Of a stretch of 64,000 nt of DNA, positions 50,382 to 52,673 are shown piece after piece; within the stretch, counting starts at the first letter, position 1, and each line of letters starts with the position of its first letter. Location of the stretch: assembly GCF_029891575.1 (NCBI RefSeq), contig NZ_JARZHF010000004.1:1-64000 (forward strand), written 5' to 3'. The stretch comes from Salipaludibacillus daqingensis. GTDB lineage: Bacteria; Bacillota; Bacilli; Bacillales; Salisediminibacteriaceae. Position numbers and translations under genes: made by a program. The notes beneath the pieces were generated by a model. The model made no database searches. It had not been told where the DNA came from and was given only the letters and a program-made list of their open reading frames with translations.

Positions 50382-51035
50382 TCATATCATTTTTTCGCTG
50401 TTGTCGGATGGCTTTTCTTCTCTTGCATCTTTTTCTAACATAGCTATTTTGCTATCTAACGTATGATGATAATAGTCGCTGTTTACTTTGTACTCTAATT
50501 CTTCAATGTAGCGTTCCATCTCCTCAAACCGAGAAATTGGCTTTTCAATTGATTCGTCTGTTAATAGGCTCATTTGATGACGCGCTCTCGCTACGTTTTC
50601 TCGTCCCATTAATTCCATTCGCTTCAATCGCATATCTTTCAATTTGTGGTTCATCTCTTCATATTTTTTCTCTAACGATTCCAACTGTCTCATTGCTTCT
50701 ACTTGGCTATAAGTTAGACGTTCCGCTCGTTGAATATATTCTTGATACTCTTTTTCTGCATAGTTTGCTAGTTCTGTTTCCCCTGCTTGTTTTGCGATCT
50801 CTACCTGACGTTTCCTTTTCTCTGCCATCTCATCAGCAAGCAATCTCTCTCGAGTAAATTCTTCTTTTAGCTTATGCTGACGCTCTACTAACTTCCGTAC
50901 TTTTTCTGCTTCCTTCTCACTTTGACGCAAGTACAGATTTAATGCTTGAATGGGGTTCTTTTCGTCTTTTTTATCCATGAGATTGTGTAAATCACTTTCA
51001 ATACTTTCAATCATTCTTGTAAATAAGTTTGCCAT
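50382..51035 (-). CDS. liaH: LiaH-like PspA/IM30 family phage-shock protein
   Basis: A 217-residue protein that is almost entirely coiled coil, as PspA/IM30 members are. It begins MANLFTRMIESIESDLHNLM and keeps NPIQALNLYLRQSEKEAEKV. Such proteins assemble into large rings that support a damaged membrane. It lies 21 bp after the LiaI-like gene and behind a good ribosome binding site (GGAGAGAGTG). Confidence 0.92.
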   Translation of the reverse strand: MANLFTRMIESIESDLHNLMDKKDEKNPIQALNLYLRQSEKEAEKVRKLVERQHKLKEEFTRERLLADEMAEKRKRQVEIAKQAGETELANYAEKEYQEYIQRAERLTYSQVEAMRQLESLEKKYEEMNHKLKDMRLKRMELMGRENVARARHQMSLLTDESIEKPISRFEEMERYIEELEYKVNSDYYHHTLDSKIAMLEKDAREEKPSDNSEKMI

Positions 51036-51056
51036 GTCACTCTCTCCTTTATAATT

Positions 51057-51419
51057 TTATTTATTTAAGTCTGCCCACTGCCGCTCGAAGTTTGTAAATG
51101 GATCACTAGACTCATTAGCTGATGAACGTGATGTATTATAACCTGAATCATCGCTTTTCTCTTTTTTAAACAAGAGATATAGGATGTATAGTGCTAATAG
51201 CCCTACAATGGCAAAAACATTCGATACGGTCATACTCAAAACGATTAGTCCGAGGATCACCCACATCACCTTTGCACCTGTTGATTCCGCTTTTGAAAAC
51301 TGTTTAAAAATCACGTATAGCAAAAATACGCCTACTGCTAATAAAATAAGGGGACCTAAATTCGCTAAAAAGATAAACAATGCAACAATCGCTAGTAGAA
51401 ACAATAAAAATGTTTTCAT
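51057..51419 (-). CDS. liaI: LiaI-like membrane protein
   Basis: A 120-residue protein with four short hydrophobic segments in the first 85 residues and a polar, Ser/Asp-rich tail. LiaI anchors LiaH to the membrane in B. subtilis. Sequence similarity to LiaI cannot be confirmed by eye, but the position as first gene directly before liaH supports it. AGGAGG lies eight bases upstream. Confidence 0.7.
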   Translation of the reverse strand: MKTFLLFLLAIVALFIFLANLGPLILLAVGVFLLYVIFKQFSKAESTGAKVMWVILGLIVLSMTVSNVFAIVGLLALYILYLLFKKEKSDDSGYNTSRSSANESSDPFTNFERQWADLNK

Positions 51420-51451
51420 CGTTATTTCCTCCTCTCATATTTCTTATCTTT

Positions 51452-51483
51452 AGTTTATCGGGAAAATTGTCGTTACATAACGA
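51452..51483 (-). promoter_or_regulatory. Candidate lia promoter with inverted-repeat operator
   Basis: On the minus strand a poor -35 (TTATGT) is followed after 17 bp by TAAACT (51452-51457), placed about 30 bp before liaI. An inverted repeat TCGTTA-TG-TAACGA (51470-51483) overlaps the -35. A weak -35 with an overlapping palindrome suits a promoter that needs an activator such as LiaR. Inference. Confidence 0.45.
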
Positions 51484-51563
51484 TCCTAAGAGTTATCTTG
51501 TCTAAGCCTGGAGGCGTATTTCGTTATAGGTATATTAGAGATTCCAAGGTAGCGAAGAGAAAA

Positions 51564-51689
51564 GTGCATTATAGAATTGAGAATGTGCATTATAGATTCG
51601 GGGAAGTGCATTATAAAGAAGTGAAAGTGCATTATAGATGATAGAAAGTGCATTATAACGAAAAGAAAGTGCATTATGTCACGATTTGA
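51564..51689. repeat. Six direct repeats with exact 21-bp period
   Basis: On the plus strand the core GTGCATTATA begins at 51564, 51585, 51606, 51627, 51648 and 51669. Five copies are identical over ten bases and the sixth (GTGCATTATG) differs at the last base. The 11-base spacers vary but are purine-rich, mostly ending in GAAA or similar. The array lies about 150 bp upstream of liaI and after the dat terminator. Confidence 0.9.
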
Positions 51690-51746
51690 CAATTTTCGCA
51701 CAAAACCATTGACCGACGAGACATCGATGCAAACATATCTCACAAC

Positions 51747-51774
51747 TAAAAATCCCCCTCAGCGGAGGGGGATT
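51747..51774 (-). terminator. Terminator after dat
   Basis: A perfect 10-bp stem AATCCCCCTC / GAGGGGGATT with an AGCG loop is followed by TTTTT on the minus strand, directly after the dat stop. Confidence 0.9.
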
Positions 51775-51779
51775 AACTA

Positions 51780-52610
51780 TTACATAAGTTTGTGAAATTG
51801 CTCTATTAATTTCGCTGTATACGGCCTTTCGGACTCTAAAACTGTGTCATCGACTTGACGAACTGGCATGATATCCATGCTCGTGCTCGTGATAAACACT
51901 TCATCTGCATTTTTTAAAAAATCTAGTGTGAATGGTGCCTCTTCCACAGACATAGGTAGCTTTTTAGCCAAGTCAAGAACAACCCTTCTCGTAATGCCAT
52001 GTAGAATGCCTTTTAAAGCTGGATAAGTATAAAGGGTCCCGTTTTTAACCGCAAATAAATTACTAGATGAACCTTCTTTCACTTTGCCTTCTTCTACAAA
52101 AATAGCCTCTTCACAGCGATTCCTTTTTGCTTTTTGTTTTGCCATGACGTTAGGCAATAAATTAAGTGACTTAATATAGCAGTTTTTCCAACGTTCATCT
52201 TCCAACGTCATCACATTCACGCCATTCTGTCTCTTTTCCTCTGGAATAATCTTCGCTTGTTTGACAGTCATAGCAAAGACTGCGCAAGGGGAATCTGGAT
52301 AAAAATGTTGACGGGCATGAATCCCTCGACTTATTTGTAAATAAATTTCTGCTTCAAGAAGTTCAGATTTTTCTAAACCATCCAAACAAATATCTTTGAT
52401 TTCTTCCGTCGTATAAGGAAGGTCAAGTTCTATCGCATCTGCACTCATTTCTAACCGTTGTAAATGTTCGTCAAGCATAAAAGGACGTCCGTCATAGACA
52501 CGAATAACTTCATAGATCCCATCACCAAACTGATGAGCTCGCTCTTGAATCGGCACAACCTTCGCATCTAAATCAACAAATGTATCTTGATAATAAGCGA
52601 TTTCAGCCAT
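51780..52610 (-). CDS. dat: D-amino acid aminotransferase
   Basis: A 276-residue fold-type IV PLP enzyme. The catalytic Lys is in NCYIKSLNLLPNVMAKQ (near residue 145). The D-amino-acid-specific arginine/histidine region is ISRGIHARQHFYP, and the PLP-phosphate site is KEGSSSNLF. It interconverts D-alanine and D-glutamate, precursors of peptidoglycan. A branched-chain transaminase is less likely given this loop. GAGGTGAG before the ATG at 52610 sets the start. It lies 63 bp after valS, outside the usual B. subtilis order. Confidence 0.9.
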   Translation of the reverse strand: MAEIAYYQDTFVDLDAKVVPIQERAHQFGDGIYEVIRVYDGRPFMLDEHLQRLEMSADAIELDLPYTTEEIKDICLDGLEKSELLEAEIYLQISRGIHARQHFYPDSPCAVFAMTVKQAKIIPEEKRQNGVNVMTLEDERWKNCYIKSLNLLPNVMAKQKAKRNRCEEAIFVEEGKVKEGSSSNLFAVKNGTLYTYPALKGILHGITRRVVLDLAKKLPMSVEEAPFTLDFLKNADEVFITSTSMDIMPVRQVDDTVLESERPYTAKLIEQFHKLM

Positions 52611-52673
52611 TATTCTCACCTCTTGAATTCGTCTTAAAACAGAGGAGTTCTGCACCCTCCTCTGCTCCAAACT

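Follow-up and report, generated by a model that had tools for sequence, protein, structure and literature searches.

A phased array of direct repeats between dat and liaI

The 64-kb window (the whole stretch of DNA analysed, part of a 4.58 Mb assembly of 27 contigs, here G000) contains an array of short direct repeats in the gap between a dat-like and a liaI-like gene (Table 1). The latter is followed by genes with Pfam matches to PspA/IM30, LiaF, a histidine kinase and a response regulator. The six cores start at positions 51564, 51585, 51606, 51627, 51648 and 51669, exactly where the first-pass annotation had placed them and always 21 bp apart, and its description of the spacers as free is borne out, the 11-bp spacers varying along the array. 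On the reverse strand, i.e., reading toward liaI, the core is TATAATGCAC. When the window was searched for runs of identical 10-mers at a single step (15-60 bp tried), the longest run comprised five copies at 21 bp, as compared with two copies in each of 100 dinucleotide shuffles and two in the window after excision of the array.

The array lies 145 bp from the start of liaI (51419), in line with the ~150 bp given previously, and 102 bp from the dat stop codon. Because it is located beyond the terminator-like hairpin of dat, it occupies the gap between two transcription units. The block closest to liaI is probably the lia promoter region. An alignment with a second array (L014, at C5:186383) indicated an edge resembling the far edge of the window array and a common next-to-last spacer; with much of both edges shared, the two look like copies. 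On the opposite side, the sequence next to the window array resembles ACAATTTTCGCAC, which follows an array near purE (L016; compared by eye).

Table 1 Features in and around the dat-liaI gap (positions in the window)
Feature	Position	Strand	Remarks
liaI-like gene, neighbour	51057..51419	-	without a Pfam match of its own
lia-proximal block TACGCCTC..CTTAG..CGTTAT	51440..51521	-	common to genus relatives with or without array (by eye)
mechanical ORF with IMHF heptads	51486..51743	-	across the array; judged spurious
far array edge, GGTAGCGAAGAGAAAA	51548..51563	+	alignment with L014 (G000:C5:186383)
six 10-bp cores, 21-bp steps	51564..51678	+	GTGCATTATA five times (exact), sixth core GTGCATTATG
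non-canonical terminus side	51679..51705	+	TCACGATTTGACAATTTTCGCACAAAA in place of ACAAWWTTCGACA (by eye)
intrinsic-terminator-like hairpin after dat	51751..51774	-	between dat stop codon and array
dat-like gene, aminotransferase class IV, neighbour	51780..52670	-	Pfam

The core is essentially confined to intergenic arrays dispersed over the genome

The exact core GTGCATTATA occurs 75 times in G000, compared with five occurrences of the reversed control. According to a manual tally, 67 copies reside within 12 intergenic arrays and eight are isolated; the core is therefore essentially confined to arrays. There is also a thirteenth array, degenerate and situated 1.2 kb from one of the others. 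Core-to-core steps measure 21 bp in 62 of 67 cases, 19 bp in three (steps of this length occur in C11) and 42 bp in two, and one array consists of 19 cores with repeated spacers. Arrays elsewhere in the genome thus keep the same fixed period, as opposed to the variable period at random places that the first-pass annotation had named as grounds against its reading. With twelve other arrays beside other genes, a special link to lia is not supported.

The arrays have polarity. In eight of the 13, one side is closed by a terminus with at most three mismatches to GTGCATTATA-ACAATTTTCGACA (control, 0), the canonical form being close to TATA-ACAAWWTTCGACA plus a C-rich tail. A ninth array (L015) carries a looser form, and the terminus is absent from the window array, L014 and both L018 arrays. 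Within 150 bp of the G000 arrays, traces of the cores of other species were not above the level in shuffles.

Relatives retain the layout with other core words

The exact two-core pattern was absent from the 34 other genomes of the family, and a three-core pattern with two mismatches allowed yielded two chance-like matches only among the other 298 genomes of the order. The terminus, by comparison, led to arrays in related species: the family genome search returned 19 matches each in G025 and G028, ten in G026 and nine in G000, with zero to three in each of the other 31 genomes and seven in all for the reversed control. Of the 48 matches found in G025, G028 and G026, 45 were examined, and all 45 close a 21-bp array of two to eight units whose end is TATA or close to it, with L172 being the most degenerate. 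The core of G025 and G028 is ACTCTACC(G/T)TATA (core word also given as ACTCTACCGTATA), and that of G026 is AGTTCGTTCGTATA-like and less uniform. Four of the eight genus genomes are devoid of the terminus family (0-1 matches), and so this family is dispensable.

G028 and G025 additionally hold arrays of a second core, TTTCGCTGAT, with 20- and 21-bp steps. Its two-core pattern was detected in seven of 397 order genomes (control, 0), and of 66 steps in arrays of the form TTTCGC[CT]GAT, 30 measure 20 bp and 30 measure 21 bp. Other families of the order contain 20/21-bp arrays with further cores: ATATCAGG(G/A)CTCAC-type units in G081 and G035, GATATGCGTG in G167 and ATATCGGTC(A/G)TCAGC in G104, each at two to seven listed places. 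One mosaic array in G167 (L229:1384-1782) has 13 GATATGCGTG-type units followed by six with TATCCGCT, roughly in register, and is a core switch within one array. When 159 order genomes were searched, irrespective of core, for five TATA words spaced 21 bp apart, G000, G103, G104, G131 and G148 matched, the last with a perfect tandem repeat; the reversed control of this search, which matched 13 genomes, does not provide a true null, since ATAT-bearing cores occur in other species.

Two further repeats were noted. In G131, about 75 ACTTCCGAAGT-type 21-bp units (L214:1371-3051) are spanned by a 558-aa mechanical ORF and may be an array or a true repeat protein. In the Campylobacteraceae MAG BB28 (JADGEE010000044.1; L026:2603-2711), five GTGCATTATA cores spaced 21-22 bp apart lie upstream of a 537-aa ORF without a Pfam match; this was the only three-core match in a genome collection from which records near the genome of the window were possibly left out. 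We rejected it as a relative of the G000 arrays, given that the whole unit is conserved and the host distant; the likeness is likely coincidental, and the repeat possibly represents iterons.

Some sites are shared between species with different cores

Ten G000 sites were checked in relatives. For four of them the corresponding gap of a relative also houses an array, built from a different core: the two gaps flanking a uvrA-linked gene for a NERD-domain protein, the purE gap and that between dat and liaI. In the uvrA/NERD gaps, the G025 and G028 arrays match those of G000 in orientation and terminus; the purE gap likewise holds an array with another core in G025 and G028. The neighbour genes at purE and uvrA were confirmed to be the same in the relatives. 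In the dat-liaI gap, a phased array (five units, another core) was present in G028 alone among seven genus relatives, G025 keeping two units (by eye) and the other five none. The first-pass annotation had regarded absence upstream of lia in close relatives, together with random placement at a variable period, as evidence against its proposal. The outcome is divided: the array is absent there in most of these relatives but recurs elsewhere with an unchanged period.

A chain detector with one false match in 81 shuffled loci revealed no clear array at the abgT, secY2, fliD, mgtE, msrA and amylase-like sites in the relatives checked, nor any chain in G027 at the four of these loci that were examined.

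Several observations were made alongside. The NERD gene beside uvrA (L011:4785-5789; L103-L105) has an array on either side in G000, G025 and G028, both oriented alike; G026 showed one on the far side only, and in G027 the stretch examined downstream of uvrA gave no NERD-gene match. A purine riboswitch precedes purE (L016:5584-5684), with the array located further upstream. The secY2 gap of G026 (L099:466-515), where G000 has its array, contains a weak three-copy 21-bp chain of GC.CAAA type. A dispersed hairpin repeat, CTGGGGGG..CCCCCCAG, is present in gaps that hold a phased array in G000, at secY2 in G025 and G028 (L100/L101) and at fliD in G028 (L108). Finally, the dat-liaI gap of G026 (L060:2230-2496) carries two copies of a different repeat of about 66 bp (by eye).

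Core and terminus change slowly in one species pair

Rates of change were obtained for the ACTCTACC and TTTCGCTGAT arrays of G025 and G028. Ten orthologous arrays with both flanks matched were compared, and units were paired by spacer, which placed 33 of 55 and 62 units. In the ACTCTACC arrays, 27 of 429 core positions had changed vs 384 of 2917 in the flank (p 1.9e-5), and four of 130 terminus positions vs 197 of 1492 in the 3' flank (p 2.4e-4). Core and terminus are slower than the flank in this pair, and units are gained and lost quickly. We prefer the paired-unit comparison because counts over all columns (core 48/910, spacer 173/549, terminus 4/169, near flank 567/3290) mix in non-orthologous units. 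Gene conversion between copies could account for part of the slow-core signal. The TTTCGCTGAT arrays displayed no clear core constraint, with about 7/145 changes in the core and about 16/135 in the spacer in a hand count, and about 5-7% in the flanks.

Arrays are rare in divergent gaps and are flanked by a switch in GC skew

Placement was analysed for 58 arrays, which are not independent, many being orthologous between G025 and G028. The neighbour on the terminus side presents its 3' end in 36 of the 58, and the far-side neighbour in 34 of 53. Relative to the majority coding strand, 27 arrays have the same and 31 the opposite orientation, i.e., there is no bias. Gaps with an array were tandem in 34, convergent in 16 and divergent in three cases (n = 53), as compared with 42, 17 and 23 among 82 control gaps of at least 100 bp at the same loci, so that divergent gaps are rarer with an array (3/53 vs 23/82, p 0.0014; controls based on mechanical ORFs). 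Of 63 array-facing 3' ends, 32 had a terminator-like hairpin separating the stop codon from the array, vs 69 of 291 other ORF ends (p 4e-5; a loose control, again using mechanical ORFs). No gene theme emerged, with no Pfam family in more than three of the 103 proteins flanking 53 arrays (judged from the 25 most frequent of 129 families). A candidate cognate protein for the core was not found.

GC skew switches across the arrays. Averaged over the 58, it is +0.29 (G-rich) at -60..-30 before the array and -0.43 and -0.40 (C-rich) at 13-40 and 40-70 bp after it, fading within about 150 bp. For 17 TTTCGCTGAT arrays, skew was -0.38 and -0.44 after the array, and +0.24 in the last 30 bp before it but -0.05 at -60..-30. 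Seventeen further arrays of six other species, whose assigned edges swallow some flank, agree in sign immediately beside the array: skew was +0.20 (sem 0.07) on the left and -0.28 (sem 0.08, n 16) on the right, with weaker values further out. The left-side skew may in part reflect decayed units and the right-side skew the conserved tail. The Chi sequence AGCGG occurs 18 times forward and five times reverse in the left flank and eight vs five times in the right (background, 5.3), counts that are confounded by the G-richness of the flank.

Competing explanations of the arrays

Judging from sequence features, we read the window array as a member of a genome-wide set of intergenic arrays where a putative protein would bind along one helical face, its recognition word depending on the species; we give this an even chance of being correct. 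The first-pass annotation had likewise proposed sites for a one-face binder, and the conserved cores, free spacers and step of two helical turns support that part of its claim, as opposed to a role specific to lia. Further support comes from the persistence of two-turn phasing in other species with unrelated cores and from the slower evolution of core and terminus than of flank in G025/G028. That relatives keep the layout with a different core suggests docking sites for a putative DNA-binding protein, not a lia switch.

The main and serious rival is that the arrays are selfish or neutral satellite-like repeats, which we regard as a distinct possibility, if short of probable. Such repeats would grow and shrink by unequal exchange, recombination or a lost mobile element would spread copies of them to further intergenic sites, and the likeness of cores within a genome would stem from recent common descent and conversion rather than protein binding. 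Indeed, two G025 arrays about 10.7 kb apart (L165/L166) are a copied segment of roughly 270-310 bp. The shared stretch takes in the array, approximately 100 bp of preceding sequence and 17 bp following the 13-bp terminus; outside it the two loci are unrelated. Whole units are gained and lost between sister species, the spacers of the 19-core array are repeated, the TTTCGCTGAT core changes at near the flank rate, and rarity in divergent gaps would also fit tolerated insertions. Against this stand the slow core and terminus of G025/G028, the terminus being slow although it is not tandem; the retention of the two-turn period across families despite unrelated cores; the recurrence of the GC-skew switch across families; and the lack of any mobile-element family among the 25 commonest of the 129 Pfam families of flanking proteins.

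That the array is a lia operator, bound by a regulator of liaIH, is very unlikely in our estimation. Its proximity to liaI and the array with another core in the same gap of G028 would suit such a role. We rejected it as the main reading on the grounds that twelve arrays adjoin other genes and that six of seven relatives are without a phased array of at least three units in the dat-liaI gap; the 58 arrays, moreover, lack a coding-strand bias, and the adjacent genes, on either side, more often present a 3' than a 5' end.

We consider it highly improbable that the arrays are solo ends of a Tn7/Tn5053-like transposon, with TGTCGAAWWTTGT as the terminus and the repeats, at a spacing of about 21 bp, as transposase-binding sites. 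The ends of Tn7, Tn5053 and CAST elements consist of a TGT.. terminus and then repeats of element-specific sequence at ~20-bp spacing, and the arrays resemble this layout. The transposase family PF09299 (TnsB/TniA/MuA) had one match each in G025, G028 and G027 and none in G000, G024, G026, G029, G030 or 14 control genomes; two array-bearing genomes, G000 and G026, thus gave no match, whereas G027, without any terminus match, has one. Furthermore, the conserved stretch runs past TGTCG into a GGGGCG-like tail, no inverted pairing is apparent from the positions and strands of the G000 arrays, and the one clear copy pair, L165/L166, has neither inverted ends nor a target duplication (by eye).

Least credible are the readings as a heptad protein that is translated or as a structured RNA. 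The minus-strand IMHF frame that the first-pass annotation had reported does exist mechanically, being open because 21 is a multiple of three, but we judge it spurious as a protein, its frame being broken in sister arrays by 19-bp or mixed 20/21-bp steps. Mean folding z for 52 arrays was -0.42 and -0.72 in the two orientations, a minority of the folds being stable (seven and nine with z below -2); the window array scored +0.86. The folded set was 52 of 53 arrays, one exceeding the length limit and five arrays of L103-L105 being left out. At gathering score, Rfam identified in six loci only the purine riboswitch, outside the array, and its three weak matches in window positions 50900-52500 were all far below that score. 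Whether or not a protein binds the arrays, heptad-repeat proteins called across them (IMHF, VHY) are doubtful. We also discarded an array of minus-strand promoters, as TATAAT is given by the G000 core alone among four genus species; a promoter scan found one promoter-like site vs 1.7 expected. TGTCGAA in the reversed terminus is a possible Spo0A box.

Relation to known repeat systems

Plasmid iterons are Rep-binding direct repeats of about 17-22 bp. The arrays are similar in their direct repeats about two helical turns apart, their number of about six and an adjoining AT-rich stretch, yet G000-type arrays have free spacers and occupy many chromosomal sites. No initiator (Rep) was among the 25 commonest of the 129 Pfam families of the 103 flanking proteins. 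Five array queries against a plasmid collection returned no match except one of 32 bp in Prevotella (E 0.04), and one array query against a phage collection returned none. On these results a plasmid or phage origin was rejected. In IMG/VR, the two-core pattern had three matches of two cores each with mechanical ORFs across them, which we attribute to chance, and the TTTCGCTGAT triple pattern had zero.

REP/BIME elements are dispersed intergenic repeats that form hairpins, in many cases next to the 3' end of a gene and seldom in divergent gaps. The phased arrays are likewise dispersed, intergenic, found mainly at gene 3' ends and few in divergent gaps; they differ in having direct, helically phased units with a species-specific core and, on average, no hairpin above shuffles. 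Among Bacilli, the bcr repeats of the Bacillus cereus group are also dispersed and intergenic, but by description these are longer, MITE-like or structured, and not phased at 21 bp. LytTR direct repeats (9 bp plus a 12-bp gap) occur as pairs at promoters and are bound on one face; core plus gap equals 21 bp, as in the arrays, for which one-face binding is proposed, but the latter are six-copy arrays outside transcription units. CRISPR repeats measure about 23-47 bp and are separated by unique spacers of comparable length, and we rejected this assignment for arrays with a 10-13 bp core and spacers of 8-11 bp that recur within and between arrays. By analogy, the arrays may function like iterons or cooperative direct-repeat sites and be distributed like REP/BIME, albeit not on the plasmids searched and with no REP hairpin. 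In the literature as represented by titles and abstract openings, mostly outside subscription journals, we found no published description of such arrays.

A model of species-dependent docking arrays

Under the binding-array reading, a candidate sequence-specific DNA-binding protein would dock on each 10-13 bp core. With cores two helical turns apart, about six molecules could line up on one face and possibly bind cooperatively, and the terminal sequence ACAAWWTTCGACA with its C-rich tail would mark one end of most arrays. Since many arrays have a terminator between them and the neighbouring gene and few occupy divergent promoter gaps, their action would probably be on the chromosome, as bridges, insulators or anchors between transcription units, and not as a single-operon switch. 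Phasing, polarity, constraint and the position between units fit a protein aligned along one DNA face and acting between operons, its binding, cooperativity and chromosome-level action being inferred. The recognition word would vary by species, with period, TATA, terminus and some sites staying; since the word differs between species, protein and cores would have to change together.

A bolder extension, which we offer as tentative and on the whole doubtful, is a species "code" across the order, in which a DNA-binding protein and all dispersed two-turn-phased arrays would change word together, array by array or in blocks (the G167 mosaic being caught in such a change), and what would persist is the period, some of the sites and, in the genus, the terminus. 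The arrays would then serve as insulators or bridges between transcription units, in a network spanning the chromosome, with a turnover like that of PRDM9 hotspots or centromere satellites, and their G-rich left and C-rich right flanks would be the footprint of events at the bound array.

If a protein does read the arrays, their recognition word has been rewritten between related species and the spacing, terminus and some sites kept. This would constitute a natural experiment in protein-DNA co-evolution and possibly a new class of sites that organise the chromosome in Gram-positive bacteria. Should no protein read them, the arrays would be helically phased satellites of lineage-specific sequence, which would be unusual in bacteria.
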